From: Candidatus Uhrbacteria bacterium
GTDB taxonomy: Bacteria > Patescibacteriota > Patescibacteriia > UBA9934
DNA: 43,322 bases
Assembly (NCBI GenBank): GCA_903848275.1
Contig: CAINGB010000005.1
Coordinates: forward strand, 1-43,322
Direction: 5' to 3'
Part shown: positions 30,239 through 42,986 of the stretch, piece by piece
Position numbering within the stretch: the first letter of the stretch is position 1
Layout: every line of letters begins with the position of its first letter
Translations under genes and position numbers: made by a program
Notes under the pieces: model-generated
Seen by the model: only the letters and a program-made list of their open reading frames with translations
What the model was told of the DNA's origin: nothing
The model's database searches: none

Positions 30239-31723
30239 TTATATCATGCCCTTTAACTTCCTATAAATCTCCACCATCGCCCAAGTATCCAGTGCGCAAT
30301 AATCGAGCAAGTCGCGCTTAATCTTCTCCTTATCGCTGGCCGACGTCGACGCTGAGATGAGCTTCTCCCAGCGCTCACTCGCCTGGTCGCCCTTACTGAT
30401 ATTCATCACGCTGTAATTGAGGCTCGGCACCAAGACTGGCAAAACTTTCTTAATACTCGCACTCCCCTTAAAAGCCGGGTCGACATAGTAGCCATCGGAG
30501 AAGATCGTCATCAAATCGAACATCTTATCATTAATCTCTTTCAAAAACGACGCATATTCTGGGTGCAACTCAGCCAGCTTGTCATTCCGTTGCTTCTCAT
30601 AACTGCTGTACCAACTAATCACCGTCCCGTTCGGATCGAGGTCCTTCTTCATGCGCTCGATGAGAGGCAACGTCAAATCTCCCTCCGGCTCCGTTATCAA
30701 GAACTCGCGGTGCTCTATCTCCCCATCTGCTCCCATTATATGCAAGCTATACTGGAACGGAATCTGCTCATACGCCCCAAAGCCGTCGAACATGGGAATA
30801 GCGCTGCTATACCCCTCGTAATCAAAGAACTGTAACGGGAACTGCAAGCCGTCTAGCGCTTCTTTAATCGCTCCGTAATCAATTATCGCTTTGCCGAGCA
30901 CATAAGACTCATACTGCAGCTTTTGCGCCACGTTCAAGTCCTCGGGGTTATGGATGTCCTTAAGCGACAACTCCCCGCGGTCCACCCAATCAAGCAACTT
31001 CTTCTTGCTCATGCCTATGCGGTTGAAGTTATGAACCGAATACTCTGGCACTTCAGGATTCGAGTACGCAAAAGTGCTGCACTGATTGCTCCGCCCCTCG
31101 TACACGCAAGCGCAACCTTTCTCCTCCGGCAACAGCAAACACTCCTTCATCTGCATCATCTCCCCCTTCACTTGTTCCTCCGCCGCCGTCACCTCCCCCG
31201 TCAAATCTGCTTCGATGAACAATTCACAATTAACAACCTTACCCTGCTTACGATATTCACGATTCAAATGAATGACGCCAGCCTTAGCAATCTTGACCCC
31301 ATACGCCTCAATCACAATCTTCTGAAATGCCAAATCGTTGACGTGGTGATGCGGCACTTTGCGCTTCACCTCATTCGTCGCCTTCACCTCCCATAACTCC
31401 CAGCCATCGAGTTCCGTATTAAACCGCAAAATATCCGCCCGCAAATAAAACACGTCCTCCTGGAACGTCGCCTGAAAAATCGTCTTCTTCTCCTCAATGG
31501 TCTTCTTCGTATCGATCACCGCCTGACCATGATGACTCTCAATCAACACTCCCTCGGGATAGAGGAGTCTACACGCCGCCTCAGCCAAGTTACCGTCCTC
31601 AATAATCTTCTTCTCAAAATCGCTAAACTCCACATCTGCAAACAACTCCGGCTTATGCTTCCGCAGCCACAGGTTCTTCTTGCAAAATGTATATTCCAGG
31701 TAATCTGTTTTGGTGATGAGCAT
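30239..31723 (-). CDS. DUF2779-domain protein (Cas4-like nuclease N-terminal region, exonuclease-like C-terminal region)
   Basis: LITKTDYLEYTFCKKNLWLRKHKPEL; LWEVKATNEVK; LQFFDYEGYSSAIPMFDG; YCALDTWAMVEIYRKL. Confidence 0.8.
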   Translation of the reverse strand: MLITKTDYLEYTFCKKNLWLRKHKPELFADVEFSDFEKKIIEDGNLAEAACRLLYPEGVLIESHHGQAVIDTKKTIEEKKTIFQATFQEDVFYLRADILRFNTELDGWELWEVKATNEVKRKVPHHHVNDLAFQKIVIEAYGVKIAKAGVIHLNREYRKQGKVVNCELFIEADLTGEVTAAEEQVKGEMMQMKECLLLPEEKGCACVYEGRSNQCSTFAYSNPEVPEYSVHNFNRIGMSKKKLLDWVDRGELSLKDIHNPEDLNVAQKLQYESYVLGKAIIDYGAIKEALDGLQFPLQFFDYEGYSSAIPMFDGFGAYEQIPFQYSLHIMGADGEIEHREFLITEPEGDLTLPLIERMKKDLDPNGTVISWYSSYEKQRNDKLAELHPEYASFLKEINDKMFDLMTIFSDGYYVDPAFKGSASIKKVLPVLVPSLNYSVMNISKGDQASERWEKLISASTSASDKEKIKRDLLDYCALDTWAMVEIYRKLKGMI

Positions 31724-31725
31724 AA

Positions 31726-32249
31726 CTATTTATTAACTTTATCAGAAAGAATACCGAACATACTCAACACATTATTTAAAGTTCGAACATTCCAATTCTG
31801 TTGCCCTGAACTCAATCCTTGCAAGTGCACAGCATTTCGTTTTTCACGTATTCGTTCGACTCGTTTAAAGATATCATCATTAATTAAACCGAGTTTTCGT
31901 GACATCTCATTAATCTGTTTAAAATCTGTATGTTTAGTTAAAATAAACTTCTTTTTGCTCCGTTTGCAAAAAACTATATTTTCAAATTTTGCCACGATCC
32001 CAGCTGGTAGCTCATACGTCTCACCATGTTGCCAAACATCCAAAATCAAGTCAGACTCTTTAGCTTTAGCTATTCTCTCAAATAGTAGCTTATGCATCAA
32101 CGCTTCAATAATTGCACTAGCAAATAAAATCGCCACCTGATAGTAGCGACCCTTAGCGCGACCTTTTACTGATCAGCATGCTTTAACTGAGTAGTGACTT
32201 GATCCAAATTCCAATCAACATTTCTCCAAAAAATATCATCATCGGACAT
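31726..32249 (-). pseudogene. HEPN-like hypothetical protein, frameshifted
   Basis: MSDDDIFWRNVDWNLDQVTTQLKHADQ* (from ATG 32249) runs by one base shift into VKGRAKGRYYQVAILFASAIIEALMHK...REKRNAVHLQG...; putative RxxxxxxH motif. Confidence 0.5.
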
Positions 32250-32257
32250 ATACTTGA

Positions 32258-32464
32258 CTACCGACCAAAATATTTATCAGCCATTTCTGCTAATCTTGCC
32301 AGTGGCTCAAAACCCATTCTTCTCAGCTCTTCAATTCTGCGAGCACCAGACAGCACCTCATAATCAGCAGCCGGTCTATTCCGCCGTTCAGACCGAGAAC
32401 GAACTCTACCCGTAGCTGCAGCTCGGGTCACATTAGTTGATTTCTTTAATGTTGCAGTCGTCAT
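32258..32464 (-). CDS. small hypothetical protein
   Basis: 68-aa ORF MTTATLKKSTNVTRAAATGRVRSRSERRNRPAADYEVLSGARRIEELRRMGFEPLARLAEMADKYFGR. Confidence 0.45.
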   Translation of the reverse strand: MTTATLKKSTNVTRAAATGRVRSRSERRNRPAADYEVLSGARRIEELRRMGFEPLARLAEMADKYFGR

Positions 32465-32489
32465 ATAACTCAATGATAACAAACTATCC

Positions 32490-32954
32490 CTACTCTGCAA
32501 ACTCCACATACTCCTCAACCGCCGTATCCTCCTGACTATACGCCATCTCATCTTCCTGTGCCTCATCAGTAACTCCCGTCATTCCACTCTTACCAGCTGT
32601 CCCCATCATTCCATTAAATGTCTGCTCTTTGAGCATGCGATCAACCCACAACCTAAACTTCGTCGCCAACCCCGGATTAACTCTATACCCAACACACAGC
32701 ACAGCCTCCAAACTATAACACTTTGTCTCATACTTTTTCCCATCCCTCGCAGTTATCCGGCATTTCCGGACAACTGTATTCTGGCTAACCTCACCGCCTT
32801 TAAACGCATTCTGTAAATGTTCACTGACCGTCTTCACACTGACCCCAAACACCTCCCCGATCTCTTTCTGCGTCAGCCAGACAGTGTGGTTTTCTACTCT
32901 TACCTCAAGTTTTATAGAACTATTAGGTAAAGTATAAGTAGCACTACTAATCAC
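32490..32954 (-). CDS. RhuM-family protein, N-terminal (Bro-N/HTH-like) module only
   Basis: VWLTQKEIGEVFGVSVKTVSEHLQNAFKGGE...YSLEAVLCVGYRVNPGLATKFRLWVDRML; lacks the C-terminal half seen in 37853-38890. Confidence 0.75.
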   Translation of the reverse strand: MISSATYTLPNSSIKLEVRVENHTVWLTQKEIGEVFGVSVKTVSEHLQNAFKGGEVSQNTVVRKCRITARDGKKYETKCYSLEAVLCVGYRVNPGLATKFRLWVDRMLKEQTFNGMMGTAGKSGMTGVTDEAQEDEMAYSQEDTAVEEYVEFAE

Positions 32955-32955
32955 A

Positions 32956-33210
32956 CTATAAATGATTAGAAATCTTCAATACCCTGATAAGCTTTTGACT
33001 CTGGTCATATGTAAAAAGACAGCGCCATTTTTTCGAGATATAAAATTCCCAAACATCAACTCCCTCATGATACACATTATTAAGAGGTTTCGCGTTAAGT
33101 GATGGATAATTTAGTCCAACTACCTTCAAAAATTTAAACTTTCGTTCGACCACTTTAAAAACACGTTGATCCTTGACCTGTTTCGAATTTTTTTTGATAA
33201 GCATCATCAA
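32956..33210 (-). CDS. RelE/HigB-like type II toxin
   Basis: 84 aa; VWEFYISKKWRCLFTYDQSQKLIRVLKISNHL fits the RelE superfamily C-terminal pattern; directly downstream of a DUF4065 gene. Confidence 0.7.
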   Translation of the reverse strand: MMMLIKKNSKQVKDQRVFKVVERKFKFLKVVGLNYPSLNAKPLNNVYHEGVDVWEFYISKKWRCLFTYDQSQKLIRVLKISNHL

Positions 33211-33228
33211 AAATCACCTCAACTCCGC

Positions 33229-33741
33229 TCATAAACTAGTCAATGATAAACTAGAATCAAGTAAAGCCAGGTCCTTGTCGATTACTTTCCCCATTTCTCC
33301 ACCATTCTCATGCACAGTAATATTATAGGAATCTAAACCATGACTCAAGTCTTCTAATTGCTTAGGACTTAAATCCTTATATCTATTTAAAACTGTCAAC
33401 AAAAATCCCGTTAATTCCGGTGCAAATTCCTTCGAACGCTCAGTTGGTAAATAATCTTCTAGTCCAGGATCGGCTTTAGCATTTTTAATAATTTGTTGGC
33501 GCCTCACCATGTCAGCAATCAATACTTTGTAGTTATTAACGATTGGTCCCATGGGCAAAGCGGCATACTCAGCATTAGTCAGCTCCCTATCGTTCTCAAA
33601 AATATAGGTAAATTCAAGAAAAAATGCTAATTTATTTAGTTTTTTAATACCCATATTTGGGTTTGAATTATTCAAAATAAAAAGCAAAAGATCTTCTATC
33701 TTCAACGCCGGTTTATTCATATTCTTAACTTCTACCTGCAT
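33229..33741 (-). CDS. Panacea/DUF4065 (SocA-like) antitoxin-domain protein
   Basis: MGIKKLNKLAFFLEFTYIFENDRELTNAEYAALPMGPIVNNYKVLIADM: DUF4065 pattern. Confidence 0.8.
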   Translation of the reverse strand: MQVEVKNMNKPALKIEDLLLFILNNSNPNMGIKKLNKLAFFLEFTYIFENDRELTNAEYAALPMGPIVNNYKVLIADMVRRQQIIKNAKADPGLEDYLPTERSKEFAPELTGFLLTVLNRYKDLSPKQLEDLSHGLDSYNITVHENGGEMGKVIDKDLALLDSSLSLTSL

Positions 33742-33823
33742 ATTAACAATAGTATCACGCCCTTAAGTTAAAATCACTGTCTGAAACTTTTAATGTTATT
33801 GAATACCGTTACATTAAAATATT

Positions 33824-34027
33824 TTACTTAAATAACTTTCTCAACAGCACCACTAAACTAATCGACGTCCGATTAAAAATCCTATTATACAGCGCCTTCC
33901 TAGGATTACTCACCCAGCCCCAACCCATAGGCATTTTAAACCCCAAATTATGCCTTATTATTCTCCGCCAACTCACTCTCGCGGCCAAACTCTTCCGCCA
34001 CGACGGCATACGTATTCCAAAGCGCAT
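33824..34027 (-). CDS. small basic conserved-looking protein
   Basis: 67 aa MRFGIRMPSWRKSLAARVSWRRIIRHNLGFKMPMGWGWVSNPRKALYNRIFNRTSISL; ends in an NPRKALYNRIFNRT-type motif recalled from small uncharacterised proteins. Confidence 0.5.
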   Translation of the reverse strand: MRFGIRMPSWRKSLAARVSWRRIIRHNLGFKMPMGWGWVSNPRKALYNRIFNRTSISLVVLLRKLFK

Positions 34028-34042
34028 ACTTAAAATTGTTAA

Positions 34043-34727
34043 TTAACCCTTATAACAAGTACAGACAGAATATGGATGATTAACACAGTAACCAGTAGTT
34101 GCTATATTCGCCAAAGATAAACCACCTGAAACTGAAACGCTGGGAAAATCTATATATTTTCCTGGTACACCTACAGACAACGAAGCTAAAGGCAATGATG
34201 CAAGTGTGATTGCACTGGGAAAGAATTGAGATGATTGAGCATATTTTGGTGCGAATACAGCAGAACCGAATTGGCAGGCACTCAAACTTTCTTTTTCAAT
34301 TTTTATACCTTCTACTGGAATTACGGTCTTCTTTGTAAATGCATTAATGAACTCACTCAATGTTTGGTAAATTGTAATTTTAAATTTTGATCTTTCACTC
34401 CATTCTTTTTTCAGAAAATCTTTAAAAATAATATCTTGCCCTGACTTTTTTTTCAACAAAATCAAACCAATCTCCATCTACAGAAATAATCGAAATATCA
34501 TCTTTAGTACAATATGTTAATAATATTTCCCATACTAATTCATCACCAATATAATCTTCTTTTTTCCCAGGAGGATTACCCCTCTCCTTACGTACTCTAG
34601 CTAAATTTAAAATTACTTCCGTTTCTGGAGTTTTTTTAGCAAAATCAGATAAAGGGGTAAAATGATCGACTACCAACTGCTTTGCCGATTTTATGTATAA
34701 ATCTTTCACTTTATCTAGGGTAATACG
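34043..34727 (-). pseudogene. PIN/DUF4935-like gene remnant: 5' end lost at an IS, internal frameshift
   Basis: Frame 1 (34422-34742): ...ELVWEILLTYCTKDDISIISVDGDWFDFVEKK; continuation in another frame (34043-34477): SGQDIIFKDFLKKEWSERSKFKITIYQTLSEFINAFTKK; shift at an 8-T run, 34446-34453. Confidence 0.6.
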
Positions 34728-34817
34728 TAAGTCTGCCACCAATCAGGTTGCAGATTTTATGTTTACTTAGCTACAAAAGAGACTTTTAAGACAGGAATAG
34801 GTAAGTTAGCCACCAAT

Positions 34818-35606
34818 ATGGCTAAATATTCTTGTCCGTTTTGTGGTTTTTGTCGTTCGTGGGTAGTTCGAGGTAAGAAACGAAAGTGTAAGCAATGTCG
34901 CCATGAGTTTAGCGACAAGACATATCCCGTTCAGGGGTTTCGTTTAACGAAGCAGACTTGGCAGACTGTCATTGCTACCTTCTTACGTGAACGAACAGGA
35001 CGACGCGTCGCTTCGGAGGCGGATGTAAGCGAGAAGACAGCTCAACGCATGCTGCATCTTCTACGAGAGCTCATGGCGAGTGAGAAGCCAGCTCAGTTCA
35101 TTGGAATCGTTGAGATGGACGAAGCCTACATTGGCGGCCAACGTAAAAATAAACGTTTACGCATTCGTCGAATTCAAGGCAAGAGAGGTCACGGAACAGA
35201 TAAATTGCCCATCGTTGGCCTGTTTTCTAGAGCCTCAGGTCAAGTTTTTGTTGACGTCGAGCCTCGCAAACTCGACGTCGCATATATCTTCAACACCATT
35301 CAAGAACGTGTCATTCCCGGCTCAACGATCTTTACAGATGGCTTTAAGATGTATCGTGGTCTAGCGAAGATTGGCTATGTGCATGAGTTCGTCGACCACG
35401 CTGGAGATGAGTACGTACGAGGTGACGTCCACACCAACAATATAGAGGGTTTCTGGGGCATCATGAAGCGTAAGATGAGCTGTATTGGTGGCATGCGAAG
35501 AGAGCGTCTTCCGTTATTCGTCGGTGAGATAGTTTGGAAATTTAACCATCGAAAACAGTCTCTTGGAGAGCAAGAAGGAGCGCTATTCGCGCTCCTTCTT
35601 AAGTAA
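34818..35606 (+). CDS. IS1595-family transposase
   Basis: N-terminal zinc ribbon CPFCGF..CKQCRHEFS; EMDEAYIGGQRKNKR; FTDGFKMYRGL; VHTNNIEGFWGIMKRKM. Confidence 0.94.
   Translation: MAKYSCPFCGFCRSWVVRGKKRKCKQCRHEFSDKTYPVQGFRLTKQTWQTVIATFLRERTGRRVASEADVSEKTAQRMLHLLRELMASEKPAQFIGIVEMDEAYIGGQRKNKRLRIRRIQGKRGHGTDKLPIVGLFSRASGQVFVDVEPRKLDVAYIFNTIQERVIPGSTIFTDGFKMYRGLAKIGYVHEFVDHAGDEYVRGDVHTNNIEGFWGIMKRKMSCIGGMRRERLPLFVGEIVWKFNHRKQSLGEQEGALFALLLK
35572..35600 (+). terminator. perfect 12-bp hairpin at the transposase 3' end
   Basis: AAGAAGGAGCGC-TATTC-GCGCTCCTTCTT. Confidence 0.6.
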
Positions 35607-35635
35607 TAAATTGGTGACTGTTGGTACGTATTACC

Positions 35636-37339
35636 CTATTTAATACCTGCAACCTTCGCATATTGCATCCAATCAGCGATTTGTGCGGATGTTTGAGTTA
35701 TAATTTTCTTTAGAATCATTCCTATTTCAGTAGCCGTATAGGCCAGAGCATCCCCTACTTTTATTCGGGTAGATTTACGACTCTCAGCTAAGTTAGTTTC
35801 TAGGTACGTCTTCTCCCATGGTTCTAATTTCGTTACTTGATTCTCACTGTACTCATCTACTATTCTACGTGACAGAGTATACACAGAATCACCCTTCTTA
35901 GCAGTCATAATGTAGTTATCCTTCGGTGATACAGTTTCATTATTTGATGAAGTAACCGGTTGTTTAGAAGTAATAGTATTAGTTTTTTGCGTTACTACAA
36001 TAGATGAGGATGCTATAACATTGTTAGCTGCTACAGATACCGAATGAATTCCGGCTATCAAAAACAAAATAATCAACGCTACAGCTGATGTATAGACAAA
36101 ACCTACCCCCGTCATTGATTTTGTAGGCATGACAACATTATTCTCGTCTGCATCAATACGCGTACCCCACTTTGTTTGCCAAATAGTTAATAGAGCAAAA
36201 ATTCTCGTAGGCACTAAAATGAATACATGAAAAAATGCATACAAAATGAAAAGTAGAAAACCAATATCTCTCGTACGGAATAATCCATAGAATGAACGAA
36301 CAATAGCCACACCCACTAAAATGGAGAAATACAAGACCAAAAGATGCCCGTCACCGATCGTTATTCCTCGTCCGATGACATACGACAAGGCAAAAATTAG
36401 CATGAATGGCATCACGAATTGATGTAAGAGCTCATACAACAAATACGGATGATGCTTTGTAGCATGACGCAAAGTCCACATCATTTCACGGTAAAAACTC
36501 TTATTCCATCGAATTTGCTGACGAATATACTGCGCTACAGTATCTGGTACATAGGTATGAGCTACGGCTTGATTATCGAAAACAACATCATGACCACGCT
36601 CTAAAACTAAATTAGTAAGATGACGATCATCGCCAAATGTACAAGGCTTTCCTAAAAAACGTTGGGATACGTATTGATCTTTTACTTCCTCGATAATACT
36701 ACGACGGTAGGCTGAGAATGGCCCAGAACAACACATCAATACAGAAAAATAACTCTGCGCAGCTCGTTCTTGATGAAATGCTGTCCAATATCTATAACTG
36801 ATTAATTTTGTTAATAAATTTTTGTTCTTATTTTCTACTCGCACGTCTCCCGTTAGTGCACCTATTTTAGAATCCGCAAAACGTTTAGCAATTTCATTCA
36901 AGGAAGTGACTGAGTGCAATATAGTATCCGAATCCAAGGTCACAATTAAATCTCCTTTTGCTATATCAAAACCTATTTTTTGTACATGCCGCTTTCCGAT
37001 GTTGCGGTATGCAAGAATAACCCTAACTTTATCACTCTGATAACGGGAGTAAATTTTTTGCTGTAATAGCTCACGATTAACTGAGCCATCATCAACTACA
37101 ATAATTTCAAAATTATCATAAGTTTGTTTTAATAGAGCATCAAGACAAGCAGATAAAATAGAAGGATCTTCGTTGAAAACTGGAATGATAACTGATACGG
37201 AAAAGCCAGATGCTACTTTTATATTAGAAGTATGTTTCTTTTGTTTAACATGCTCAAGGTGAGCAATAATAATTTGAGAAATAATATGTAATACAGCAAA
37301 AAAACCGTAGATCAAAAAAATGATTGTAATGGCTGACAT
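35636..37339 (-). CDS. family 2 glycosyltransferase (processive synthase-like) with C-terminal LysM-like tail
   Basis: VSVIIPVFNEDPSILSACLDALLKQTYDNFEIIVVDDGS, TLDSDT, TFGDDRHLTN, QQIRWNKSF; multiple TMs; C-terminal YIMTAKKGDSVYTLSRRIVDEY. Confidence 0.9.
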   Translation of the reverse strand: MSAITIIFLIYGFFAVLHIISQIIIAHLEHVKQKKHTSNIKVASGFSVSVIIPVFNEDPSILSACLDALLKQTYDNFEIIVVDDGSVNRELLQQKIYSRYQSDKVRVILAYRNIGKRHVQKIGFDIAKGDLIVTLDSDTILHSVTSLNEIAKRFADSKIGALTGDVRVENKNKNLLTKLISYRYWTAFHQERAAQSYFSVLMCCSGPFSAYRRSIIEEVKDQYVSQRFLGKPCTFGDDRHLTNLVLERGHDVVFDNQAVAHTYVPDTVAQYIRQQIRWNKSFYREMMWTLRHATKHHPYLLYELLHQFVMPFMLIFALSYVIGRGITIGDGHLLVLYFSILVGVAIVRSFYGLFRTRDIGFLLFILYAFFHVFILVPTRIFALLTIWQTKWGTRIDADENNVVMPTKSMTGVGFVYTSAVALIILFLIAGIHSVSVAANNVIASSSIVVTQKTNTITSKQPVTSSNNETVSPKDNYIMTAKKGDSVYTLSRRIVDEYSENQVTKLEPWEKTYLETNLAESRKSTRIKVGDALAYTATEIGMILKKIITQTSAQIADWMQYAKVAGIK

Positions 37340-37497
37340 ACTGGAAAATTAGCCTATTTGCTTCTGTAATAAATATCAACAAGGCAAAGCCTAAGTAAAA
37401 TCTATTAAAAAACAGTTAAATTTTTAATGACCAAAGGTTAACACGTTTTATGTCCTTCTACGCTGTGGATAACTTCTTCGCTAATGCTTAACAAATT

Positions 37498-37848
37498 TTA
37501 CAACTCCGTATACTTCACCGCACTCCCCATACTCTTCTCCACCGGATACTTCTCCCCATTCTTCGCCAGTTTGCGCTCGAAGGCGTCACTCAGGTCAATC
37601 CCCAAGTCATGCGTCATGAGGAGTACCCAGTAGAACACGTCCGCTAGTTCGTCCGCCACGTCGGATTTGTGCTCCGCAAGGTACTTGGTCAAAGCGTCGC
37701 CATTCCGCCATTGGAAGTGCTCTAGGACCTCTGTGGCCTCCAGTTGGAGCGAAATAGCGCAGTCCTTGGGATTATGGAATTGCCGCCAATTCCGGGCGTC
37801 GCGAAAGGAGGTGACGAGGGCGGTCAGTTCAGAGATAGATTTAGGCAT
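37498..37848 (-). CDS. MazG-like nucleotide pyrophosphohydrolase
   Basis: FRDARNWRQFHNPKDCAISLQLEATEVLEHFQW...DVADELADVFYWVLLMTHDLGIDLSDAFERKLAKNGEKYP. Confidence 0.93.
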   Translation of the reverse strand: MPKSISELTALVTSFRDARNWRQFHNPKDCAISLQLEATEVLEHFQWRNGDALTKYLAEHKSDVADELADVFYWVLLMTHDLGIDLSDAFERKLAKNGEKYPVEKSMGSAVKYTEL

Positions 37849-37852
37849 ACTA

Positions 37853-38890
37853 TTATGGATTTTTCGAGTTTATTCTTAATGCTAAATCAAAATCAGAAAC
37901 GAAAAGTCTATCCTGCGTTTGCCGATACTTCTCAAACTCAGTCAATGCCAGAGCCTCGGCCACCTCGTGCGTCACTTGACCAGCGTTAGCTAGGATCTCT
38001 CGTTCATTAAATTTCAAGAAGGCGTCTAGCTTTACCACCCAGTCGTCCATTCGCATAAGTATTCCGCGCTCAGCCTGAGCTTCTGCGTAGTCCAAATACA
38101 TGGTCACGATTCTATTCAGGTGATCAAGTTCCTTTTCTTGTAAATAATTCTTAGCAATCACTACGTCATGTTCGCGTATTTCTCCTAAAGGTGAGTTCTT
38201 CCAAACAGTTAAACCAAGATTGGGTTTGGCGCTGTCAACCCTATCAACAATGATCTCCGCCGCCGTTTTACCAGTAATCGCAAAATGCAGTTTATTTTGC
38301 ACGGTAGCGAAGAAGCTCTTGGTAATTTCGCTATCTGGTTTATAGTCGGCGCTACACTGGGCGTAGATATCGGTCACTTTCTGATACATGCGCCGTTCGC
38401 TGGAACGAATGTTACGAATACGCGCCAATTGCTCCTCAAAGTAGTCTTTGCCGAAAATGCTGTTAGGGTTCTTCAAACGCTCGTCATCCATGGTAAAACC
38501 CTTAATAATGTATTCACGCAAACGCTCCGTGGCCCACATGCGAAATTGTGTTGCTTGGGCTGAATTTACTCGGTAACCGACGGAAATGATAGCATCTAAA
38601 TTATAGTACTCAATCTTTCGGGTTATCTCTCGCTGCCCTTCCGTTTGAACTTGTGCAATTTTTGCACAAGTTGCCTCTAACAAAAGTTCACCCTCTTTGT
38701 ATATATTTTGTAAATGCTTAGTCACTACGCTTCGTTCAACACCAAAAAGTTCTGCTATTTTAGCTTGTGTGAGCCAAATAGTTTCATCACGCAAAAAAAT
38801 CTCTAATTTTACCTGGCCATTTGGCGTTGTATATAACAAAAACTCAGTAAAGCTATTGTTTGGTACTATTTTTTTTGTTTTTTTAGCCAT
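37853..38890 (-). CDS. rhuM: RhuM-family protein
   Basis: EIFLRDETIWLTQAKIAELFGVERSVVTKHLQNIYKEGEL...YYNLDAIISVGYRVNSAQATQFRMWATERLREYIIKGFTMDDERLKNP. Confidence 0.92.
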   Translation of the reverse strand: MAKKTKKIVPNNSFTEFLLYTTPNGQVKLEIFLRDETIWLTQAKIAELFGVERSVVTKHLQNIYKEGELLLEATCAKIAQVQTEGQREITRKIEYYNLDAIISVGYRVNSAQATQFRMWATERLREYIIKGFTMDDERLKNPNSIFGKDYFEEQLARIRNIRSSERRMYQKVTDIYAQCSADYKPDSEITKSFFATVQNKLHFAITGKTAAEIIVDRVDSAKPNLGLTVWKNSPLGEIREHDVVIAKNYLQEKELDHLNRIVTMYLDYAEAQAERGILMRMDDWVVKLDAFLKFNEREILANAGQVTHEVAEALALTEFEKYRQTQDRLFVSDFDLALRINSKNP

Positions 38891-38901
38891 ATATGTAGCT
38901 A

Positions 38902-39729
38902 CTAACCTCGACCTATTTTCTTGCCACTACTTTTCAACGTCTTTTCAACCTTCTTTAAATCCTCCTCGGCTGGCAGATTCTCTGGTTGAATCCCACTTTT
39001 TAGCAGAACCTCACGCACGTTCTGATTATTCTTGATATGCTCAGCGGCAATCGGCTGCTCACCATACAATGCACGTTCTTTCTTCACATTAAAACTAGTA
39101 ATCTCATTCGCCAAATCTTTAGCCTTAATCGTTACCGCCGGCAAGAAGTCAGCCAACGGGCGCTTGGCTGCAATCCCGAGCTTGGCTTTCATCTCCTGAG
39201 TACTATGGCCACCAAACAAAACAGTATCGCCTTTACTCTTAATCCTCGCTAAGCCCATATTGTCGACCCCACGCTCAAACAACACTCCAGATAACTCCCT
39301 ATCTGATTCCGTCAGCTTCTTGCGGGCCTGTAATCGCTCCAGATCCGCCAAACGCTTCACAACCACCTCTTGATTCCTAGTCTGGACTGCGAAGTAAGTT
39401 TGGGCAAAAGCAATTTCGTCTTTCCGTGGGTCGCCATTCTGGGCAATGAGATAACAAGCGTAACGCGTTAGCATAATATCTGCTATTTCTCGATTGCCTC
39501 CCTTCGGTACTGCTATCGATTTGTTGACGTCAACAAAATGATCGTTTATTGGTTGTTTTACATTTTCACAAGCAATTTTTGCCTTGTCCACAATTTTCTC
39601 GAAGTTCCTCCATTCATCATAACCCAACAGAATCTGCAGTTCCCGAGCATACCAAAACTCCACACCGTTATCCTCATGAACACATTCTTCAAAATTCTTG
39701 TGTAAAGTGGTGATAATTTGTGGGTCCAT
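38902..39729 (-). CDS. dinD: DNA damage-inducible protein D (DinD)-like
   Basis: [34 protein letters not shown]...[33 protein letters not shown]...[24 protein letters not shown]. Confidence 0.92.
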
Positions 39730-39826
39730 AGGATTTTCATTTTATTACAAGGCATCTTATCACATTCTTTTGGCTATTGGACAAAGCTATAATCTAAGCT
39801 ATTCTGTAACCACTAATCTCTATTAT

Positions 39827-40450
39827 ATGAAACCCGAAGCACAGTACCAAGCACTTATAGAGCAAGTTTATACAGCTGACCCACAGGCACTCATTGAACT
39901 TGCCAACCGCATGAATGAGGAAGAAAACGAAGAGGTCGTAGACTTTTTAATCGATGCTTTTGACACCGCCTGTTTATTATACGCCATGGGCGGAACATCT
40001 TCTCCAAGCACCGAGCACGATGACTGGCAACACTTTAAGCTTATAGTAAAATACTACGACCAATACAACGATCATCAGGAAACACTCATTCATAATGAGG
40101 CAGAGTTGATTCAGACAAAATTTGAAATAGGTGTCCTTAAGAACCTGCAACAAAAAAATAATGTTGGTATTGATGCCGACTACATAGCACACTCATTAGA
40201 ACTATTTAATCGCAGAATTGAAATAATAGAGAATAGTAATAGCGAGGAACAGCAACAGTTGAAATTTTGTGAAATTTGGCTCGATGAAGCAAAAAAACAA
40301 CTAGTACATCCAAGATTTTCTTCATTACCAAAAGCGTTGATGGAAGATTTAATCGAGGCTGTGAGTTTTCGCTTATCTGAAAAGGAACATTGCGATGACT
40401 GTCCAACGTGCGTAGGAGATGCTGATGAATTAGATGATTCTGAGGGGTAA
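39827..40450 (+). CDS. hypothetical acidic protein
   Basis: 208-codon ORF from ATG 39827 with TATAAT at 39788-39793; ends CDDCPTCVGDADELDDSEG. Confidence 0.65.
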   Translation: MKPEAQYQALIEQVYTADPQALIELANRMNEEENEEVVDFLIDAFDTACLLYAMGGTSSPSTEHDDWQHFKLIVKYYDQYNDHQETLIHNEAELIQTKFEIGVLKNLQQKNNVGIDADYIAHSLELFNRRIEIIENSNSEEQQQLKFCEIWLDEAKKQLVHPRFSSLPKALMEDLIEAVSFRLSEKEHCDDCPTCVGDADELDDSEG

Positions 40451-40458
40451 ACTGACTA

Positions 40459-40553
40459 ATAAACGTGAAAAACATCAAATTTTCATAATAATTCACGTTT
40501 ATCTTGACTATAAACGTGAATTATGGTAAAATAACGTTATAATTCACGTTAAT
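40459..40553. promoter_or_regulatory. promoter with four ATAAACGTGAA-type operator sites upstream of fic
   Basis: Sites 40459-40469 (+), 40488-40502 (-), 40510-40524 (+), 40539-40550 (-); TTGACT 40504-40509, 17-nt spacer, TAAAAT 40527-40532. Confidence 0.8.
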
Positions 40554-40600
40554 TATTTGCTATAGCTAGGCTCAAGTCGTATCTAAAAGAGATTGATAAT

Positions 40601-41434
40601 TTGCGTAAACGCTATTTTTTAGCTTTACCAGGCAAAGAATCGCTCATGAAATTAATTAGTGAAGCTGAGGTTTCGGAACAAGTTTATAACTCAAATGCTA
40701 TTGAGAATAGCACGTTAACCTTGGAAGAGACCGAGAAGATTTTGCTTAAACTTGACCTCGATCGCTATATCAGCGAACGAGAATTATTCGAAGCCAAGAA
40801 TCTGGCACAAGTAACCAGCTACATGGAAGTTCGGGCCCACGAACAGCCACTCAATGAGGACGTGGTGCTCCTGCTCCACAAAATGCTGCTAACGAATATC
40901 CGGACAGATATCGCTGGACGTTTCCGAGGGCCTGACGAGTGGGTTCGTGTTGGTAGTTACATCGCTGCCAATCCAGCCAATATTTACGAGCTTCTGGCTA
41001 ACATGTTTACAGAATATGCCGCTAATCCGCAGCTGCACATCGTTAAACGTCTAGCTAAGTTTCATTTAACCTTTGAACACATCCACCCCTTCATCGACGG
41101 CAATGGCCGCATGGGCCGCACTATGAATAACTACCTTTTACTACGTGACGGTTATGTGCCGCTCACTATTCTTTTCGCTACCCGCGAGTTGTATTACCAG
41201 GCTTTCAAGGAGTTTGATGCGACAGGTTCAACGTCGACTATGGAAGATATCATCGGTTTAGCCCTACGAGAAAGTTACCACAAGCGCTTGGCATATCTTG
41301 AAGGTAAAAAGATTATTACCCTCAATGAATATGGGAAGATAAACGATATCACGCTTTCTGCCCTACTCAATAAAGCCACACGTCAAACTATTGAAGCTTT
41401 TCGCGAGAAAGGGACGTGGAAGATTGGAGTTTAA
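40601..41434 (+). CDS. Fic-family protein (putative AMPylase) with N-terminal inhibitory motif
   Basis: HPFIDGNGRMGR (Fic motif); YNSNAIENS (S/TxxxE[G/N] inhibitory motif); C-terminal SALLNKATRQTIEAFREKGTWKIGV HTH-like. True start may be upstream of the TTG. Confidence 0.93.
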   Translation: MRKRYFLALPGKESLMKLISEAEVSEQVYNSNAIENSTLTLEETEKILLKLDLDRYISERELFEAKNLAQVTSYMEVRAHEQPLNEDVVLLLHKMLLTNIRTDIAGRFRGPDEWVRVGSYIAANPANIYELLANMFTEYAANPQLHIVKRLAKFHLTFEHIHPFIDGNGRMGRTMNNYLLLRDGYVPLTILFATRELYYQAFKEFDATGSTSTMEDIIGLALRESYHKRLAYLEGKKIITLNEYGKINDITLSALLNKATRQTIEAFREKGTWKIGV

Positions 41435-42986
41435 ACGGCAACCTCACCATCTCCTTCTCCCCATCTTTTACAAGCTGAGTCAGCAACCCCTCCCAGTCAA
41501 AAAACGGCAAGACAAACAACATGTACCCCAAGCCGATCGGGTGGTTCAAATACGGCGAGAAGACGTGGGTGACAAAGAGAGCGACCACACCAGCGTACAG
41601 GCCGATGGTCAGCCAACGGTGACCGTGATTGTGGTAGGTGAAGTAGAAGGCGCGGCTGACGACGACGAGGTACCAAACGAAGGCGATGAGGCCGAGCAAG
41701 CCCATCTTGAGCCAAATGTCTTGATAGCCCCATTCAAAACGATAAGTGGTGTATTCGCCAGTTGGGTTGGTGGCCCGAATCCGTGGGTCGTCAGTAATGA
41801 AGGTGACGTTGTGACCAAAGCCCCGGCCCAACATCGGACTCGCCACAATCTCCTGGTACATCGGGTAAAGCAAATTCCAACGGCTGCTAATAGCCAGGCC
41901 ACGATCGTCCGCTTGCGACGATTTATAGAAAGCCGCATCTTTTAAATTTGGATGCTTGGGAATCGGGCTAACAATTACCGCCCAGAATAGCACTACACCA
42001 ACAGCCATCACCACACCAACTCGACCAGCATTCAAAACATATTTACCAACAGTTTTCGGTGCATCAAGTAAGGCGAACAACGCGACAATGGCAGCTCCAG
42101 CCACCGCCCCAAGCACAAAGCTCCTGCTCAAACTCGCCACAAACGTGGCCGTGCAAAGAATCAGCGTCGCCTTAGCTGCGAGCGGCATCCTCTCACTCTT
42201 CCACACCGTAAACTTCGCCGCCACCAGCGCAAAAATCATGACCATCGGGAAGAAATGCGCCGGCTCGAAAACGCGGAAGTACCAGGGGCTGGCACTCGAC
42301 AAAAAGTGACCGACAAACCAGTTCGGTCCAGTGAGTAACGTCACCTCGGCAATCCGGGCGTCACGCACAAACTCGTAAACTCCCCGCAGTAATCCCCCCG
42401 GCAAATGCGTGAAGAGGAAAACAATCAACAACGTATTCACGCAAATGAAAACAGTACTGGCAAAAAATACCTGCAACAATTCCCGCTTCTTATTGCTATC
42501 CCAAACGATCGACAACAGCGGCAATAAATAGGCGATCGTCACATAACTATTCGCATCATCGAACGCTTGACCAACGTTGTTCTGCGCGAAGCCAATCACG
42601 GTACCAACCACCACCGCCACGAGTAACAGCAACCACGGCGTATCACGCAACACCATGAACTTGGGCCACGTCTTAGTCTTAATCGACGTCGCGAGCCAAG
42701 CCAACATCACCGCCGCAAAAATCACCATCCTGATGCTCAAACTAAATCCGCCAACACTAGCGTCAATCAAGTGACCATGTCCGCCCACCATAATCTCCGC
42801 AAAAGCAATTAGCAACCCATTAACTGGATTCTTATACGCCATGACGGCCGTCACCACAAAAATGACGCCGAGCACAATCAACGACGGAATTTGTTGATGC
42901 TGAATAGGAATCGCCACCAGCGTCGTAAGCGTCAATGCCGCCAACACTACCCCTGCTGTCTTGCCGATGAATTGCTTGCTAAACAT
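41388..42986 (-). CDS. O-antigen ligase/polymerase-like polytopic membrane protein
   Basis: ~12 hydrophobic segments; RWNLLYPMYQEIVASPMLGRGFGHNVTF and late cytoplasmic/periplasmic loop typical of Wzy/WaaL-type proteins. Confidence 0.8.
   Translation of the reverse strand: MFSKQFIGKTAGVVLAALTLTTLVAIPIQHQQIPSLIVLGVIFVVTAVMAYKNPVNGLLIAFAEIMVGGHGHLIDASVGGFSLSIRMVIFAAVMLAWLATSIKTKTWPKFMVLRDTPWLLLLVAVVVGTVIGFAQNNVGQAFDDANSYVTIAYLLPLLSIVWDSNKKRELLQVFFASTVFICVNTLLIVFLFTHLPGGLLRGVYEFVRDARIAEVTLLTGPNWFVGHFLSSASPWYFRVFEPAHFFPMVMIFALVAAKFTVWKSERMPLAAKATLILCTATFVASLSRSFVLGAVAGAAIVALFALLDAPKTVGKYVLNAGRVGVVMAVGVVLFWAVIVSPIPKHPNLKDAAFYKSSQADDRGLAISSRWNLLYPMYQEIVASPMLGRGFGHNVTFITDDPRIRATNPTGEYTTYRFEWGYQDIWLKMGLLGLIAFVWYLVVVSRAFYFTYHNHGHRWLTIGLYAGVVALFVTHVFSPYLNHPIGLGYMLFVLPFFDWEGLLTQLVKDGEKEMVRLPFKLQSSTSLSREKLQ

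Follow-up and report, generated by a model that had tools for sequence, protein, structure and literature searches.

Does the Panacea (DUF4065) gene considered here, together with the RelE-like reading frame and the short RhuM-like gene that follow it, encode a toxin-antitoxin (TA) or defence system of three parts, as the first-pass annotation of this DNA proposed, or an ordinary antitoxin-toxin pair beside an independent gene? The window, by which we mean the whole stretch of 43,322 nucleotides that was analysed, is one 43-kb contig of a draft genome (985 kb, 48 contigs, 99% complete). All four reading frames of the proposed locus lie where they had been placed, but the assignment of one of them has changed:

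33229-33741, minus strand: PanA, a putative stand-alone Panacea/DUF4065 antitoxin (PF13274, E 3.7e-12)
33157-33232, minus strand: N-terminal frame of the toxin gene (MSGVEVIFDDAYQK...), matching MSGVNVTFHSDYEK of the intact toxin at locus L048
33188-33195, minus strand: run of eight A as read on that strand (A8), site of the toxin frame change
32956-33210, minus strand: C-terminal frame of the toxin gene, the earlier 84-aa ORF, assigned by alignment and by the predicted RelE/YoeB fold of the L048 toxin
32490-32954, minus strand: short RhuM N-terminal-domain protein (RhuM-N), 154 aa (PF13310, PADLOC PDC-S05)
32258-32463, minus strand: small basic ORF, 68 aa from ATG 32463, of no family

An antitoxin gene and its split toxin

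The DUF4065 call at the head of the locus holds, as PanA scores 47.6 bits against PF13274 (cut-off 25.7); it carries no DNA-binding or helix-turn-helix (HTH) domain. The frame runs over 33741-33229 as described, but its start does not stand: translation probably begins at ATG 33720, giving 163 aa, because this fits the 158-163 aa length of relatives. Those at L047 and L048 are 74-79% identical to PanA (76% for L048, on a Ca. Peribacteria contig), and pN of 0.14 against pS of 0.83 points to purifying selection.

The partner of PanA had been taken for a toxin of 84 aa starting 18 nt downstream, and here the first description has to be replaced, as the split of the toxin gene over two frames had escaped it. 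The homologous start is ATG 33232, which overlaps the PanA stop (ATGA). The frame that opens with MSGVEVIFDDAYQK soon meets a stop, and the protein carries on as NSKQVKDQ... in another frame, with the junction at the A8 run; the 84-aa ORF is only the 3' part of the gene. In this assembly the genome therefore holds its toxin as two frames rather than as the intact 91-aa protein of L048, which begins MSGVNVTFHSDYEKNSKQVKDQ at an ATG that likewise overlaps its PanA stop (ATGA). The TTG-ATG-ATG at which the 84-aa ORF opens has no counterpart in the relatives and appears to be accidental. An SD-like GAGGTGA lies upstream of these ATG codons, and the ORF could be translated; its product would lack strand beta-1 and would keep all nine residues that are invariant in the family alignment. 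Compared with L048 over 78 codons, the window toxin has an omega of 0.07, and its C-terminal part (pN 0.15, the same as PanA) has no excess decay, as if it were still selected. Since the surviving codons are as conserved as PanA, the break would be recent, or rescued in some way, or an error of assembly.

The pairing of a Panacea antitoxin with a RelE-like toxin is borne out by its recurrence. The same toxin family follows PanA in genomes G045, G018, G076, G403, G091, G214 and G371 and on the Ca. Peribacteria contig, with a whole toxin ORF at L048, L072, L074-L077 and L007, and with an overlap or a short gap between the genes at loci other than the window and L048. Because these eight other loci carry the same pair, chance is excluded, and we take the pair to be real. 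To place the toxin among known folds, we modelled the intact L048 protein by AlphaFold with an alignment of five members (mean pLDDT 80, pTM 0.69). The best Foldseek matches in the PDB were YoeB (7v6w/7v5y), archaeal RelE (1wmi) and YafQ, with E of 7e-6 to 9e-5, probability 1.0 and TM of about 0.75-0.8. On this model the partner of PanA is a RelE/YoeB-fold toxin, and the RelE-like label is upheld by an intact relative. No Pfam or NCBIfam RelE-type model matches the toxin above cut-off, and its relatives give weak ParE_like, HigB_toxin and Gp49 matches. The likeness to RelE, YoeB and YafQ lies in the predicted fold, the length and a conserved C-terminal His; the window toxin differs in its split frames, in an identity of 10-18% to the nearest solved structures, and in having an activity that is predicted.

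PanA is a whole ORF at every locus of the pair, and at three of ten loci it stays intact beside a broken toxin: in the window, in G018 (L008), where the frame changes elsewhere in the gene, and in G067 (L011), where an internal deletion leaves MSGVRVV... and ...VLRVCNHL.

Broken toxin-like genes in a variable hotspot

The locus is part of about 9.7 kb of cargo between two flanking genes:

31724-41387: variable hotspot, with the DUF2779 gene on one side and the O-antigen-polymerase-like gene on the other
30239-31723: DUF2779 gene, hotspot flank
41388-42986: O-antigen-polymerase-like gene, hotspot flank
31726-32249, minus strand: HEPN-like gene in two frames (MSDDDIFWRNVDWNLDQ... at 32249-32166, then 32136-31726)
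34043-34715, minus strand: PIN_12-like gene (PF16289, E 1.3e-4)
34718-35636, plus strand: IS1595-family element, transposase at 34818-35606 (PF12762, E 1.6e-29)

In genome G066 the two flanking genes are adjacent, an empty site, and in G065, a genome of the same genus, the cargo between them differs and includes a type III restriction-modification system, DUF3800, RhuM and Bro-N genes. Also in the G065 hotspot is a second, non-homologous pair of HTH-Panacea and toxin-like genes beside a short RhuM-N (L065:5065-6732). A full-length RhuM gene stands next to a Bro-N/DinD-like gene in the window (37853-39729, minus strand; PADLOC PDC-S05, PDC-S13); this pair is conserved at the hotspot in G065 and is a possible two-gene defence unit. 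Between the PIN_12-like gene and PanA lies a 67-aa basic ORF (MRFGIRMPSWRKSLAARVSWRRIIRHNLGFKMPMGWGW...; 33824-34027, minus strand).

Whole ORFs in the window cargo are those of PanA, RhuM-N, RhuM, Bro-N, a MazG-like protein, a glycosyltransferase and the transposase, and three toxin-like genes are broken in frame: the PanA partner, the PIN gene and the HEPN-like gene. This selective disabling of toxin-like genes is the most interesting observation that we made, and it concerns three genes only. Orthologues outside the hotspot, compared between the window and G065, are all in a single frame, and the frame breaks are restricted to the hotspot. At the IS1595 end the PIN_12-like gene has lost the region for its N-terminus, and it changes frame at an A8 run (34446-34453); its two frames match, one after the other, 126-190 and 194-249 of a 338-aa relative that is intact (intact relatives at L173 and L174 are about 340 aa long). 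The IS1595 element is present as a single copy with terminal inverted repeats GGGTAATACGTA. It has no matching target-site duplications, and the adjacent glycosyltransferase gene draws part of its stop codon from the right end of the element, which suggests that sequence was deleted when the element inserted or later. Intact 180-aa relatives of the HEPN-like gene occur in G066 and on contig C25 of the genome to which the window belongs, with an invariant R..RN..H motif on which the HEPN label rests, and a profile search of the set against the PDB returned nothing useful. An intact HEPN-like paralogue lies beside an HflX-like GTPase gene both in the genome of the window (L071:9242-9787) and in G066.

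How should the toxin frame break be read? A sequencing or assembly error at the A8 run would leave the toxin intact and the locus a plain working pair. A frame change inside a homopolymer, in a draft of 48 contigs and in a toxin without excess decay, fits such an error, but we consider it unlikely: in the 372 kb of the genome covered by our homopolymer check, the other A8 runs lie inside intact ORFs of 696, 478 and 304 aa, the orthologues outside the hotspot are free of frame breaks, two more toxin-like genes are broken nearby, in one case away from any long homopolymer, and the toxin has been lost in G067 and G018 as well. Alternatively, the A8 run may be a site of transcriptional or translational slippage or a phase-variation switch, with a functional toxin made at low output. 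Such rescue has precedents: genes of the insect endosymbiont Blochmannia that are frameshifted at poly-A tracts yet conserved are rescued by slippage (PMC3017870), and slippage rescue has been described for tssM of Citrobacter (PMC4256274). The purifying selection on the codons 3' of the run, which contain no further stops, and the A8 frame shift of the PIN gene would be expected under slippage. Nevertheless, the run is short (8), the intact L048 toxin has no A-run at this position, where it reads GAGAAGAAC, and, with the other broken copies owing their breaks to a deletion or to a frame change elsewhere, the run does not qualify as a conserved device. For us, slippage is quite improbable.

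The RhuM-like neighbour

RhuM-N matches profile positions 2-60 of 252 in PF13310 (E 5.8e-12) and, over residues 6-116, PADLOC PDC-S05 (E 1.9e-36); it thus has a RhuM N-terminal domain, not the full RhuM domain, and had been rightly described as a RhuM-like protein with the N-terminal half alone. Its likeness to the RhuM family covers the N-terminal ~116 residues. In place of the C-terminal domain, to which it is unrelated, there is a short acidic tail that is predicted to be disordered (pLDDT mostly >90 for residues 1-110 of the model, <50 for 121-154). The tail, AYxQEDTxxEEYVE, is common to the short forms of the window and G065, and essentially no other match reaches into it. We considered a fresh truncation and rejected it, as no RhuM C-terminal sequence lies downstream in any frame and the tail is also present in G065; to judge from these sequences, RhuM-N is an established short form. 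It is evolving fast, with an omega of 0.30 and a dN of 0.43 versus 0.05-0.08 for its neighbours. Foldseek searches with its model gave weak winged-helix matches alone (best E 0.07), and DNA binding is plausible; the family is a candidate single-gene defence (PDC-S05). Viral contigs yielded one weak fragment when searched with RhuM-N and nothing when searched with the intact toxin, so we see no sign of a phage-borne version. As for the small basic ORF beyond it, the ORF exists and matches no family, but its 102-aa version starts out of frame inside RhuM-N, and the 32463 start is likelier.

Could RhuM-N be a third component that serves the Panacea-RelE pair as DNA-binding regulator or sensor? 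Its GTG start lies 1 nt beyond the toxin stop, RhuM families are PADLOC defence candidates, and an outside DNA-binding protein could give autoregulation to a PanA that has no HTH. In G065, too, a Panacea-RelE-like pair has a short RhuM-N beside it, and the acidic tail of that protein is the same. There, however, RhuM-N comes first, upstream at a distance of about 93 nt instead of downstream, followed by HTH-Panacea and then RelE-like, and the pair is not homologous: its PanA is 26% identical to that of the window and has its own HTH, and its toxin is unmatched by our toxin profile. The first-pass annotation had proposed a search for co-occurrence of the three genes in other genomes. At the eight other copies of the pair the toxin is never followed by RhuM, which adjoins just one of 45 other Panacea loci, the one in G065; two further RhuM profile matches are the HTH of PanA itself (L009) and a Bro-N-like gene with another gene in between (L048). 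RhuM is found in 104 of the 381 genomes of the class, and, among the matches listed, G000 alone has RhuM and Panacea side by side. GC content also changes abruptly at the toxin/RhuM-N junction, from 34% to 46% (PanA 34.5%, toxin 33.9%, RhuM-N 46.2%, backbone 51.7%). We therefore rejected RhuM-N as a conserved third gene: its absence from the other eight pairs, the GC change and the non-homologous pair of G065 mark it as a separate neighbour in the same hotspot, the tripartite claim is not supported, and we hold it to be very improbable. Also very improbable is that the acidic-tailed RhuM-N is a genus-specific accessory that partners whichever Panacea-RelE pair holds the hotspot, with frame breaks at poly-A runs keeping the dose of the toxins low, in which case it would be a detached DNA-binding or sensing partner of two non-homologous pairs in two species.

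A probably decaying PanAT locus

We favour, at a probability of about three in four, a horizontally acquired, hotspot-borne type II PanAT (PanA-PanT) locus with a degraded toxin and an independent RhuM-N. Such a locus would consist of a stand-alone PanA translationally coupled by ATGA to a RelE/YoeB-fold PanT, seated in a defence/TA hotspot that belongs to a patescibacterium resembling Ca. Uhrbacteria. Stand-alone Panacea proteins neutralise toxins by direct binding (NetFlax 2023, PMC10440598), and in an intact relative PanA would, by family, bind and block its toxin directly, while the freed toxin would, by fold and family, cleave ribosome-bound mRNA. In this genome the toxin frame appears to have been broken at the A8 run recently, because no further decay is seen, and the locus would at present yield an intact antitoxin and no more toxin than a form altered at its N-terminus or rescued by slippage. 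PanA would then have little or no cognate toxin, and we speculate that it may be kept as a shield against incoming relatives of the toxin. RhuM-N would be an independent candidate-defence gene of the hotspot. Against this reading stand a possible assembly error at the A8 run, which would leave the toxin intact, the undecayed toxin C-terminus, the SD-like GAGGTGA and the RhuM-N beside PanA-RelE in G065.

Known PanA partners include ParE-type and other known toxins, with accessory third genes present sporadically (Kurata et al. 2022, PMC8832971). With the published PanAT systems (PMC8832971, PMC10440598) the locus shares a stand-alone Panacea antitoxin, an antitoxin-first order with an overlapping or nearly overlapping toxin gene, a known toxin fold (RelE/ParE in the published network) and a mobile distribution. 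The clade of the window differs in a predicted RelE/YoeB-fold toxin that falls below all Pfam cut-offs, frame-broken here, and that has PanA as its partner throughout the Patescibacteria genomes that we searched.

The locus is thus most likely a decaying ordinary PanAT system and not a new three-part one, and a spurious three-gene system can be struck from the candidates. In its place we add a recurrent pairing of Panacea with a RelE/YoeB-fold toxin in Patescibacteria, and a natural case of repeated toxin loss with the antitoxin kept, which bears on how solitary antitoxins persist, including anti-addiction or sensing roles.
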